From contig NZ_JAOTIK010000001.1 in NCBI RefSeq assembly GCF_030116705.1, positions 6,414,501-6,478,500 of the forward strand: a stretch of DNA of 64,000 nucleotides, written 5' to 3'. The first letter of the stretch is position 1; each line of letters starts with the position of its first letter. The notes beneath the pieces are model-generated. The model worked only from the letters and a program-made list of their open reading frames with translations. It was not told the origin of the DNA and did no database searches. The position numbers and the translations under genes are program-made. Shown here piece after piece: positions 47,012-50,444 of the stretch. The DNA is from Streptomyces sp. ML-6. GTDB taxonomy: Bacteria; Actinomycetota; Actinomycetes; Streptomycetales; Streptomycetaceae.

Positions 47012-47653
47012 CACTGCCCCACCGCCCGGTGCGCGGCGGCGGGAGGCCGCCCTCCCGGCGGTCCCGCCACCGTGTACCGGGCGGTCCCCGCAGTTCCCCG
47101 GACGGATGCCGGGGCGTTTCGGTTTCATCGGCGAATCAATTTTTTATCCAAATGGATCCGGGATTACCGACCGGTACGTTTATTTGGTTCCTCCGCCTCG
47201 CGGTTTCCGTGGTCGCGCGGAAAGCGAAAACCCGGTTCTAAACATCGTGCATTGTCAGAGATTCAGACATTCGGTGGGTGAATTCGACTCTTCAGGCCCT
47301 TGTGTGCACGCGCTCGCAAGGGTATGGGAATCGATCGTGGCTTCCCTCGTCTTCCCTGCTCAGCGCCGTCGGTGTGACGGGGGTGGGGTGCAGAAACTGG
47401 ACGCCTGGACGCTTTTCCGGGTCGGTCCCTCCGGCCCTCCTCCCCGGTCGGTCATTCCGTCATGTTCTCCATATTTGCCGCAAGTCGCACGCGACGCAAA
47501 AGAAGTCATTGACAAGCGCTTTCTCGCTGGGCTTCACTCTTTTCGGCGGTGAGCGGCAAGGGAATTCCCTGCCCGAGGCGGGGGCTGATGTCGCGAACAG
47601 GCCGAGTCATGCCCTGTGAATGCAAATTCAGAGTAAAAGGTGGAGGTGCTGTT
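47012..47653. other. Long A+T-richer spacer upstream of the RiPP precursor gene
   Basis: About 640 bp with no supportable gene. 47130-47260 is markedly A+T-rich for this genome (TTTTTTAT, TTTATTTGG), with CCAAAT at 47148 facing ATTTGG at 47182. A perfect TTGACA stands at 47509-47514, about 140 bp before the precursor start; its best -10 (TTCACT after an 18-bp spacer) is weak. The low GC suggests transferred or strongly regulated DNA. Confidence 0.5.
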
Positions 47654-47734
47654 ATGAAGTTCCTTTTCTTGCTCAAGGACAAGATGACGCCGGAGAAGAG
47701 CCTGAAGGCGTACGCCTGGTACCACTGGTACTAA
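47654..47734 (+). CDS. Atropopeptide-type RiPP precursor peptide, core AWYHWY
   Basis: A 26-codon gene from ATG at 47654 with GGAGG seven bases upstream (47642-47646) and a TAA stop. The product is a Lys-rich leader (MKFLFLLKDKMTPEKSLKAY) directly followed by AWYHWY at the very C-terminus. Established: tryptorubin A, the founder of the atropopeptides, derives from AWYIWY and is crosslinked by one P450. Seen here: same leader-core layout, same aromatic positions, and a P450 gene 115 bp downstream. The Ile to His change at core position 4 is distinctive. Inferred product: a bridged, shape-locked hexapeptide, leader removed by proteolysis. Too short for ordinary gene callers. Confidence 0.9.
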   Translation: MKFLFLLKDKMTPEKSLKAYAWYHWY

Positions 47735-47746
47735 ACCGGCAGGGCG

Positions 47747-47765
47747 GTCCTTCGTCGCGAGGGAC
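47747..47765. terminator. Hairpin between precursor and P450 genes
   Basis: GTCCTTCG-TCG-CGAGGGAC, an eight-pair stem with one G-U pair, starts 12 bases after the precursor stop. Such partial terminators or stabilisers often let a RiPP precursor transcript exceed that of its enzyme. Confidence 0.5.
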
Positions 47766-47849
47766 ACGGTCAGTCGATTCGGGCCCGTGTCCGGCCAGGC
47801 CTCATCGGCCCGCCGGGCGCGGGCCCTTCCCGCTTCTTGGAGACCATCG

Positions 47850-48893
47850 ATGCACATGTCCGGTACCGGCAGCCGCGCCCGGGAAGTCGTCTTCGCGCCG
47901 AGGCTCCAGGCGCTCCTGCGAGACCACCGGGGCGAGGACGTCTTCCGCCTGGACCCCGGCACCGTCGGCGTGGCCGGAGCCGCCCTGTCCGACCGGATCC
48001 TCGCCGCCAGACCGGCCACCGAGGACGAACGCCCCACGTTCAAGCCCCTGCACGGGCGGTCCATTCCGCGCGCCGAGGCGTCGACGGTCATGCGGGCCAT
48101 CGGCCGGGACGTGCGGACGGCGCTGAAGAAGCCCGTCGGGGCGGTCGACCTCTCCGGCGAGTGGCCGCACGTCGGCCACGTGTTCCTGCGCGACCTCGTC
48201 CTGGAGGGCGACCCCTACCGGCTGCGCATCCTCATGGACCGCGCCCTGGAGCTGACGCCCAAGCTCACCTGGACGGTCATCGCCGCAGGGGCGGCCCTGC
48301 CCGGCCGGCTCCGCCCCGGCGCGCCCGTCTCCGCCATCGCGGGCCTGACCGCCGAGGCTGAGGGGTACGGCGACCGCCGCTATGCGATGGGGCTGTACCG
48401 GCGGGCGGCGGCCCCGGTCTGCTTCACCGTCTCGACGCTCGTCGCCAGTGCGCTCTGGCTCGGCTCGCCCTTCGACGACGACACCTCGAACCGGAACATC
48501 CTGTACGAGGCCATGCGCCTGCTGCCGCCGTCCTGGAACATCCTGCGGAGGGCGTCGCCGGAGTACCCCGCCCTCGACTCCCGGATCGGCGCGGGCGACG
48601 ACGTCCTGATCCTGCCGCTGCTGAGCCACCGCGACCCCGCGCTCTGGGAGGACCCCGACGAGTTCCGCCCCGAACGCTGGGACGGGCTCGACCCCGAGGA
48701 CCACCCCGGCTACCTCCCCTTCGGGCACGCCTCGGAGCGCTGCTGGGGCCGGCACATGGTGATGCCGCTCGCCGAGATGCTGCTCGACCGGCTGCGCGCC
48801 GACGGCCTGACGGCGAGTCCGGAGCAGACCACCGCGAAGGTGCCCCTCGCCGGGCTGATGGGGGTCTCCGAGGTGCGGGTCGTGAGGGCCTGA
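47850..48893 (+). CDS. Cytochrome P450, probable crosslinker of the AWYHWY peptide
   Basis: 347 residues from ATG at 47850 (GGAG seven bases upstream; a second ATG follows at 47856). Conserved P450 elements: K-helix E220-x-x-R223 in YEAMRLLPP, FRPERW at 272-277, and heme-ligand Cys298 in PFGHASERCWG. It is about 50 residues shorter than most bacterial P450s. The heme signature departs from FGxGxHxCxG, and no A/G-G-x-D/E-T oxygen motif is visible in the I-helix region (VCFTVSTLVASALWL). Such divergence is reasonable for a peptide-crosslinking enzyme. It would form C-C or C-N bonds among Trp and Tyr of the core. No ferredoxin gene adjoins. Confidence 0.88.
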   Translation: MHMSGTGSRAREVVFAPRLQALLRDHRGEDVFRLDPGTVGVAGAALSDRILAARPATEDERPTFKPLHGRSIPRAEASTVMRAIGRDVRTALKKPVGAVDLSGEWPHVGHVFLRDLVLEGDPYRLRILMDRALELTPKLTWTVIAAGAALPGRLRPGAPVSAIAGLTAEAEGYGDRRYAMGLYRRAAAPVCFTVSTLVASALWLGSPFDDDTSNRNILYEAMRLLPPSWNILRRASPEYPALDSRIGAGDDVLILPLLSHRDPALWEDPDEFRPERWDGLDPEDHPGYLPFGHASERCWGRHMVMPLAEMLLDRLRADGLTASPEQTTAKVPLAGLMGVSEVRVVRA

Positions 48894-49241
48894 ACCCGTT
48901 TCATCACGTCGTGAGGGCTCTGTGAACATGGGGGGCGGATTCAAGCCGCCCCCGCCTTCACGGATGCCCTCCGTCAGGCCCCTTCTTCCCGCTCGCGAAG
49001 CGGGCCGATAGTGCCTGACGTGGGCGGCAAGTCCGGTGCGCGCGGCGGGCGTTGCGGTGGCGTCGCCCGGCTCGGGGGCGACTGGCCGGTTTCTTATTAC
49101 GAAACTTTGTTGAGTAAGTCACAGCCGCAGGAAGCTCTTGATCTGGGCGCGTCAATCGGTCAGGGTTTCGAGCCAGCCCCCCGGAGATCTTCCGGCCGGG
49201 GGTCAATCCCCCCACAAAGAATGACGAGGAGACCCCTCTTC
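48894..49241. other. Spacer between P450 and subtilisin genes
   Basis: 348 bp without a gene. It contains the terminator at 48931-48953, a CCCGCT-CGCGA-AGCGGG hairpin near 48988, a short A+T-rich stretch at 49092-49115 (TTTCTTATTACGAAACTTTG) that may hold the protease promoter, and a CCCCCGG/CCGGGGG stem near 49180-49206 in the protease leader. Confidence 0.5.
48931..48953. terminator. Hairpin closing the RiPP operon
   Basis: GGGGGCGG-ATTCAAG-CCGCCCCC, eight perfect pairs, 37 bp after the P450 stop. Confidence 0.65.
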
Positions 49242-50444
49242 ATGGCAACTCACAAGCGCTCAGGCCGGATCAAGCTGACCGCGGCGATAACTGCGGTCGC
49301 CGCAGCGGCCGGTGTCACCCTGCTCAACACCTCGCTCGCCGGGGCCGCCCCCGCTCCCAGGACGGGTGTCGTCTACGGCGCAAACGCGGCGGACGCCGTC
49401 GCCGGCAGCTACATCGTCATGCTGGACGGGAAGGCCGACAAGGCGGAGCTCGCCAAGGAGTACGGCGGCAAGCTGAAGCGCAACTACAGCTCCGCCATCA
49501 ACGGCTTTTCCGCCAGCGGCCTCTCGCTCGCCGAGGCCAAGCGCCTGGCGGCCGACCCGGCCGTCTCCAAGGTCGTCCAGAACAAGAAGTTCCACATCAG
49601 CGAGACCCAGCAGAACCCGCCGTCCTGGGGCCTGGACCGGATCGACCAGACCGAGACGACCGGCGACGACGCGTACACCTACCCGGACAGCGCCGGCGAG
49701 GGCGTCACCGCGTACGTCATCGACACCGGTGTTCGCATCACCCACGAGGAGTTCGAGGGCCGGGCCACCTCGGGCTACGACGCCGTGGACGACGACGACA
49801 GCGCCGACGACGGCAACGGCCACGGCACCCACGTGGCGGGCACCATCGCCGGTGCCACCTACGGTGTCGCCAAGAAGGCCGACATCGTCGCCGTCCGCGT
49901 GCTCGACGACTCCGGCTCGGGCACCACCGAGCAGGTCGTCGCGGGCATCGACTGGGTCACCGAGAACCACGAGGGCCCCTCCGTCGCCAACATGAGCCTC
50001 GGCGGCGGCGCGGACGAGGCGCTCGATGCCGCGGTCCAGCGGGCCATCGCCTCCGGCGTCACCTTCGCGGTGGCCGCGGGCAACGAGTCCACCGACGCGA
50101 GCGGCAGCTCCCCGGCCCGCGTCCCGGAGGCCATCACGGTCGCCTCGTCCACGGTGGACGACGAGCAGTCGGACTTCTCCAACTACGGCTCGATCGTGGA
50201 CATCTACGCGCCGGGCTCGGACATCACCTCGTCGTGGAACGACAGCGACGACGCGTCCAACACCATCTCCGGCACGTCCATGGCGACCCCGCACGTGGTC
50301 GGTGCCGCCGCCGTCTACCTGGCCGGTCACCCGGACGCCACCCCGGAGGAGGTCGCCACGGCGCTGACCGAGGGCGCCACCCCCGACGCGATCTCCAACG
50401 CGACCGAGGGCACGCCGAACAAGCTGCTGAAGGTCGTCGAGTAA
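49242..50444 (+). CDS. Secreted subtilisin-like serine protease (S8, proteinase K/aqualysin type)
   Basis: 400 residues from ATG at 49242 (GAGGAG ten bases upstream). Signal peptide 1-36, inhibitor-I9 propeptide about 55-123 (GSYIVMLDGKADKAELAKEY), mature enzyme from about residue 125 (NPPSWGLDRIDQ). Catalytic triad intact: Asp161 in VIDTG, His197 in GHGTHVAGT, Ser346 in SGTSMATPH; oxyanion Asn in AAGNES. A secreted general protease. It follows the RiPP operon behind a terminator; a part in trimming the AWYHWY peptide is possible but only speculation. Confidence 0.94.
   Translation: MATHKRSGRIKLTAAITAVAAAAGVTLLNTSLAGAAPAPRTGVVYGANAADAVAGSYIVMLDGKADKAELAKEYGGKLKRNYSSAINGFSASGLSLAEAKRLAADPAVSKVVQNKKFHISETQQNPPSWGLDRIDQTETTGDDAYTYPDSAGEGVTAYVIDTGVRITHEEFEGRATSGYDAVDDDDSADDGNGHGTHVAGTIAGATYGVAKKADIVAVRVLDDSGSGTTEQVVAGIDWVTENHEGPSVANMSLGGGADEALDAAVQRAIASGVTFAVAAGNESTDASGSSPARVPEAITVASSTVDDEQSDFSNYGSIVDIYAPGSDITSSWNDSDDASNTISGTSMATPHVVGAAAVYLAGHPDATPEEVATALTEGATPDAISNATEGTPNKLLKVVE

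Follow-up and report, generated by a model that had tools for sequence, protein, structure and literature searches.

The window, which is the whole 64,000-nucleotide stretch of DNA analysed here, carries a two-gene operon on its forward strand. A 26-codon precursor gene is followed by a cytochrome P450 gene. The features of the locus are as follows.

47509..47538, + strand: predicted promoter, TTGACA (47509-47514), an 18-nt spacer and TTCACT (47533-47538), from conserved blocks
47642..47646, + strand: Shine-Dalgarno-like GGAGG of the precursor gene, kept in 7 orthologous loci
47654..47734, + strand: precursor gene, 26 codons plus stop, matching NF038372
47696..47707, + strand: KSLK leader motif, residues 15-18, from the sequence
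47714..47731, + strand: core AWYHWY, residues 21-26, with the cleavage point placed as in characterised family members
47723..47725, + strand: His codon CAC at core position 4, the variable core site in a comparison of 50 precursors
47781..47826, + strand: intercistronic hairpin with a 15-bp outer stem, from shuffle and same-locus tests
47839..47842, + strand: Shine-Dalgarno-like GGAG of the P450 gene, invariant in a 13-sequence alignment
47850..48893, + strand: cytochrome P450 gene, 347 aa, predicted peptide cross-linking enzyme, from Pfam PF00067, relatives, predicted fold and precursor pairing
48741..48743, + strand: codon of Cys298, predicted heme ligand (FGHxSERCWG), invariant in 46- and 50-sequence alignments
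48908..48975, + strand: hairpin after the P450 gene, probable terminator without a T-run (−45.5 kcal/mol, z −4.0)

Translation of 47654-47734 gives MKFLFLLKDKMTPEKSLKAYAWYHWY followed by a stop, and the C-terminus reads KSLKAY-AWYHWY. A preliminary description of this DNA had proposed a 26-codon gene ending exactly in AWYHWY and followed by a P450 gene; the translations of 47654-47734 and 47850-48893 agree with it to the base. The ribosome site that it placed before each gene is also present, as GGAGG at 47642-47646 and GGAG at 47839-47842.

In the window, the degenerate codon pattern for KAYAWYHWY-stop has a single occurrence, and none of 100 shuffles contains it. Streptomyces sp. sk2.1 has the same precursor DNA as the window (0 differences), that of ADI95-17 differs only in the stop codon, and that of the genome G179 carries three changes, each synonymous. 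At the orthologous loci, the DNA upstream of the precursor is far less conserved than the precursor DNA. Because the precursors of near relatives are almost frozen while the flanking DNA diverges, we consider the small frame to be coding.

The P450 reading frame is intact. The Pfam match to PF00067 spans residues 216-305, and the ExxR motif is formed by E220 and R223. An AlphaFold2 model built from 46 sequences has a mean pLDDT of 79.8 and a P450-like fold. Its top-ranked PDB match is a P450 structure (E 1.2e-7, with a TM of only 0.58), and solved P450Blt chains are among the fold matches.

Family assignment and precursor–P450 pairing

The precursor matches the NCBIfam model NF038372 (tryptorubin_fam, 'tryptorubin family RiPP precursor') with 59.5 bits over all 26 positions; the curated cut-off is 33. 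The same search of 14 control genomes gave no match. In a sample of 392 genomes of the genus, the family was found in 44 genomes at 45 places (2 of the 44 genomes lie below the cut-off), and the window's own genome has one such precursor. A P450 with 62-100% identity to the window P450 lies downstream of all 45 precursors. A P450-led search of the same 392 genomes returned 51 places in 48 genomes, of which 47 are 62-100% identical to the window P450 and the remaining four 38-41%. Two of the close P450s, in G304 and G351, have PSLK precursors that lie outside the NF038372 list at E 0.001. With these two and the 45 found by the model, every close P450 (47/47) has a precursor upstream. P450 relatives without a conserved small gene, which the preliminary description had named as grounds for rejecting its reading, were thus not seen among the 47 close P450s.

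Two homologues were compared with the window P450: the one from Amycolatopsis xylanica, the amyxirubin-making species, has 65% identity to it and the one from S. clavuligerus 68%. The S. clavuligerus precursor, upstream of its P450, ends in KSLKGYAWYIWW. The earlier assignment to the tryptorubin/atropopeptide operons therefore holds, on the curated model match, the two identities and the pairing. Its remark that such a gene is easily missed by annotation holds in part. An NCBI model for the gene exists (NF038372), and the table of the S. clavuligerus plasmid collection, which is known to be incomplete, has the P450 and not the precursor.

The published definition of the atropopeptides (PMC11450843) asks for a class-defining P450, Trp at core position 2 and the leader motif KSLK. 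The homologue identities and the 47/47 pairing point to such a P450, KSLK occupies residues 15-18, and AWYHWY has Trp at position 2. The second Trp at core position 5 also places it in the bitryptide subfamily (xWxxWx plus KSLK). Biarylitides are made from a five-residue precursor encoded by an 18-bp gene, and the precursor here has 26 residues. Among 50 compared precursors KSLK is present in 46, the remaining four having KNLK, PSLK (two) and RSFK. The motif is hence not strictly universal: Streptomyces sp. RPT161 has AWYHWY behind the RSFK leader. In that strain (L053:1373-1393, minus strand) the core follows the divergent leader MAKKIREAIFGARSFKRV, and the precursor scores 18.4 bits, under the NF038372 cut-off of 33, so mining with the model would miss it. 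Core residues W2, Y3 and W5 are invariant in the 50 precursors, an invariance partly built in by the NF038372 search, which favours AWYxWY-like cores; position 6 is Tyr in 43 of the 50. The P450-led search of the same genomes found no other core type among the 47 close P450s. The locus is likely an uncharacterised natural member of the known tryptorubin/atropopeptide family, rather than a new kind of system.

The four P450s at 38-41% identity to the window's form a sister group (L151:5794-8115, L152, L153 and L154, on G241:C6, G303:C15, G358:C1 and G166:C1), found in 4 of the 392 genomes. All four lie downstream of a conserved 27-aa gene ending in DEDLA[N/S]HAWVLHVI, and a homologue of a JmjC_2 (PF08007) protein follows the P450 in 4/4 loci. 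These precursors are without KSLK and have Trp-x-x-His where atropopeptides have Trp-x-x-Trp. Of 134 protein clusters matching this sister P450, 120 were listed; 85 of the 120 are at least 62% identical to it, and the named ones are mainly from Streptomyces and Kitasatospora. As a bold guess, the group might make a Trp-His cross-linked, possibly hydroxylated peptide. In PMC12352619, a WxxH mutant was no substrate for the atropopeptide P450 ScaB. In the literature searched, the strings AWVLH, HAWVL and WVLHV occurred only in two papers, both unrelated by title. G358 and G166 hold both AWYxW-type and WxxH-type operons, and G358 has two of the former, with the cores AWYIWY and AWYGWI.

Regulatory elements and flanking genes

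Upstream of the precursor, TCATTGACAA and a GCTnnACTC block are kept in 7/7 orthologous loci while the surrounding DNA diverges, and the predicted promoter rests on these conserved blocks. A sigma-70 consensus promoter scan listed no site here, and an Rfam search of the window gave no match. The terminator that the preliminary description placed after the P450 gene is partly upheld. There is a strong stem at 48908-48975 (−45.5 kcal/mol), and 0 of 200 shuffles were as stable, but it lacks a T-run and was not listed by a consensus terminator scan.

None of 100 shuffles, and none of 59 stretches from the same locus, reached the stability of the hairpin between the two genes of the window. When the best 56-nt fold of the intercistronic stretch was compared across 50 loci, 41 were matched by no more than 5 of 100 shuffles; in the same-locus test, 36 of the 50 were matched by no more than 5% of equal-length stretches, and 14 were not. 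Three of the nine loci failing the 56-nt shuffle test have only 49 nt between the genes, and in two others (L068 and L080) the stems outspan the 56-nt window. Whole-stretch folds gave z under −2 in 34/50, each stretch ending at the first aligned P450 residue and some taking in a few P450 codons. The position of the hairpin between precursor and P450 is constant, and its sequence varies by clade. Covariation among 13 near sequences is modest: 2 of the 15 pairs change on both sides, and against 500 shuffles the score was reached by 29, the share paired by 54 and the number of both-side-changed pairs by 152. In the S. clavuligerus plasmid copy, a hairpin appears to be present from reading the sequence. 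The words 'hairpin', 'stem-loop', 'terminator' and 'intergenic' are absent from the main texts of the two atropopeptide papers searched.

From the general logic of such operons, the hairpin likely meters the P450 against the precursor by lowering P450 synthesis. When a ribosome site was inserted before svaB, varsorubin production rose about 100-fold (PMC11450843), a sign that translation of the P450 can be limiting in atropopeptide pathways. The hairpin may thus be a handle on yield.

Downstream of the operon lies an S8 peptidase gene (49242-50444). It was considered as a dedicated leader protease and rejected, as homologues occur in 76 of the 392 genomes at E 1e-190 or better. The peptidase flanks the operon in only 6 of 48 comparison loci (L069, L071, L074, L075, L155 and L156). 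Among the 30 closest S8-peptidase loci, a P450 adjoins the peptidase in five, the window included, and two (L162 and L186) have a solute-binding gene directly beside the peptidase and no operon. Precursor and P450 are thus likely to be gained or lost together between the flanking genes. At L167 (G204:C1), a permease gene and the S8 peptidase gene enclose a remnant of this P450, which matches residues 187-337 and has internal gaps; the operon seems to have decayed there.

Variation at core position 4

The residues at core position 4 in the 50 precursors are Ile (16), His (11), Leu (11), Phe (6) and Gly (6); five of the 11 His rows were picked for having His, and the share of His is therefore taken from the genus sample, in which 6 of 45 precursors, the window's among them, have AWYHWY. 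The codons are ATC, CTC, TTC, CAC and GGC throughout. A single base separates those for Ile, Leu and Phe from each other, and one base also turns Leu CTC into His CAC.

On a P450 tree of 50 rows, which cannot separate gain of His from its loss, the distribution of His requires five changes, and the starred branches force five. A single His clade is rejected on this tree (AU p 7e-74). The row for S. huiliensis (L057) is shortened by a contig end in all P450 trees. Apart from a single coding base (CTC/CAC) and the stop codon, the precursors of A0642 (His) and G166 (Leu) are identical, and 24 of 348 residues distinguish their P450s. The same flanks, with transport genes upstream and the S8 peptidase downstream, occur at seven loci, of which five have His and two have Leu.

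A search for residues of the P450 that specify His gave no convincing His-linked residue. One column (residue 98) differs in all of three independent His/non-His contrasts, which were chosen by the analyst. The best His-associated residue, E29, is present in 10 of 11 His rows and 3 of 39 others, an association in which kinship is mixed. Judged from these comparisons, position 4 of the core is mutable and changes among Ile, Leu, Phe and His; we infer that the P450 tolerates the change and that His arises or is lost repeatedly. Orthologous operons differing at one core codon offer a natural experiment on the effect of position 4 on cross-linking and activity.

The AWYHWY core had been called novel, and this is true in one sense only. 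No AWYHWY product was found in the text of the papers searched, and AWYHWY may well be on the list of 683 clusters in PMC11450843. The core itself recurs in other public Streptomyces genomes. In a pattern scan of 84,980 species genomes, eight named Streptomyces (WAC 01529, G44, sk2.1, RPT161, ADI95-17, huiliensis, A0642 and silaceus) had AWYHWY followed by a P450. Together with the genus sample, with three loci common to both, this gives 11 distinct loci.

An extension of the AWYHWY family to other taxa was also considered and rejected. Of the 36 stretches with the degenerate pattern, 28 lie outside Streptomyces; many of these end in TGG rather than a stop, and no KSLK-like leader was found in the 25 codons beside the 28. 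In Shouchella (L033, L034, L045, L047, L050, L051, L054, L056 and L064-L066), the pattern falls repeatedly in a frame like IAWVRSWAWYHWYW, and these matches are probably a dispersed repeat unrelated to the tryptorubin family.

Predicted product and comparison with known systems

We are confident in predicting that the two-gene operon makes a His-containing member of the tryptorubin family, with the P450 likely cross-linking Trp and Tyr side chains. This reading draws on the sequence, the curated family match, the 47/47 pairing and the recurrence of AWYHWY, and it borrows the bond pattern, the role of the leader and leader removal from characterised relatives. The KSLK leader would thread the precursor into the P450. 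The enzyme would then join Trp2 to Trp5 and Trp2 to Tyr3 and close Trp5 on the backbone, with a loss of four hydrogens, and the His4 side chain would stay free. Housekeeping proteases would subsequently cut off the leader, and often Ala1 too. The hairpin between the genes would lower P450 synthesis relative to the precursor.

Calculated [M+H]+ values are 921.3678 for AWYHWY minus 4 H and 850.3307 for WYHWY minus 4 H. The monocyclic forms (minus 2 H) would appear at 852.3464 (WYHWY) and 689.2831 (WYHW). The mass search proposed in the preliminary description assumed a loss of 2 Da per cross-link, which needs correction: varsorubin B1 has three bonds, yet only four protons were lost from WYQWL ([M+H]+ 791.35; PMC11450843). 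Laurentirubin B has four bonds with 6 H lost (PMC11450843). The formulae used here reproduce the ions of both compounds.

Scabrirubin and varsorubin B2a have one bond each (PMC11450843), and the three-bond pattern is thus not assured for AWYHWY. The bridge-above (Pansa) bicyclic shape of the tryptorubin-type cage is not found in all family members (PMC11450843). It is conceivable, though we think it unlikely, that the operon makes only a monocyclic, scabrirubin-like peptide, WYHW or WYHWY minus 2 H with a single Trp-Trp bond, and not a three-bond atropisomeric cage. The single bond of varsorubin B2a would fit, as would the loss of only 2 Da by the ScaB products of many precursors, natural WPHWY included (PMC12352619). 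However, tryptorubin B and varsorubin B1, for which three modifications each have been reported (PMC11450843), have the same Trp2-Tyr3-x-Trp5 spacing, and Y3, the partner in the Trp-Tyr bond, is kept in 50/50 precursors.

An operon that is silent or decaying in the window's strain is improbable. It may have been gained or lost at the same place in L162 and L186 (2 of 30 S8-peptidase loci), and L167 holds a P450 remnant; in the window, however, the precursor is intact, the upstream blocks are conserved, and the P450 frame is intact with Cys298 and ExxR (E220, R223).

The preliminary description had also taken His as a second reactive side chain near the cross-links. In its strongest form, the His4 imidazole itself would be oxidised or cross-linked by the P450 in a new type of bond. 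Biarylitide P450s do join His to Tyr (PMC12352619), and on the P450 tree the His state has switched five times or more. We nevertheless regard this as very improbable. Side chains between the two Trp residues, and hence position 4, are absent from the bonds described for characterised members in the sources consulted (PMC11450843, PMC12352619), and ScaB cyclised the natural WPHWY core, which lost 2 Da. ScaA-I25H, a mutant with His at position 4, was likewise accepted and reportedly gave the corresponding cyclic tetrapeptide (PMC12352619). Furthermore, the P450s of A0642 (His core) and G166 (Leu core), which are sisters, differ at just 24 of 348 residues, and only one column differs in all three chosen contrasts. 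The His-4 substitution is interesting, yet it already has precedent in WPHWY and ScaA-I25H. A chance frame or an uncoupled leader peptide in place of a precursor has next to no probability: the frame is short and small frames are common, with 13 of at least 20 aa overlapping 47300-47900, but the curated model match, the purely synonymous changes in G179 and above all the pairing with 47/47 close P450s refute it for practical purposes.

The preferred reading is therefore a His-containing family member. If the product is made, the 1.24-kb two-gene cluster would yield a caged, polycyclic peptide whose imidazole is free; the cluster is small enough for expression, and the masses given above are exact targets. 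A wider proposal, which we put forward tentatively and hold to be doubtful, is that the hairpin meters the enzyme family-wide, and that Streptomyces has repeatedly used the one-base switch at position 4 to install His, yielding a group of tryptorubins whose imidazole is selected for a role of its own, for example in binding a target or a metal. Added here to what was known of the family are the repeated occurrence of His, the orthologous Leu/His loci, the intercistronic hairpin and the corrected target masses.

The core of tryptorubin is AWYIWY, which fits its reported masses, and thus has Ile at position 4 where the window has His. Its product is known, and that of the window operon is predicted. 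The tryptorubin A/B and other atropopeptide operons share with the window two genes, a small KSLK precursor, an xWYxWY core and a family P450; as far as these clusters are described in PMC11450843, they are also, like the window, without a dedicated protease. KSLK falls at residues 15-18 in the window and 17-20 in the set of PMC11450843. The varsorubin operon (core SWYQWL; PMC11450843) likewise has a polar position 4, and its three-bond product has been reported; it differs in having Gln for His and Leu for the last Tyr, and in the several products obtained from one P450. WPHWY and ScaA-I25H (PMC12352619) resemble the window in having a His before the second Trp that an atropopeptide P450 accepts. 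Unlike the window, they have Pro or Phe at position 3 in place of Tyr, and they are processed by ScaB with a 2 Da loss (one bond). The biarylitides (P450Blt; PMC12352619, PMC13417212) also combine a tiny gene and a P450 to give a small cross-linked peptide, but from a five-residue precursor with a Tyr-His bond, and their P450 has been used as an outgroup to the atropopeptide P450s. The aminopyruvatide P450 ApyO (NF050147) is the best-scoring NCBIfam model for the window P450, at 61.1 bits against a cut-off of 525, and belongs to another substrate and pathway.
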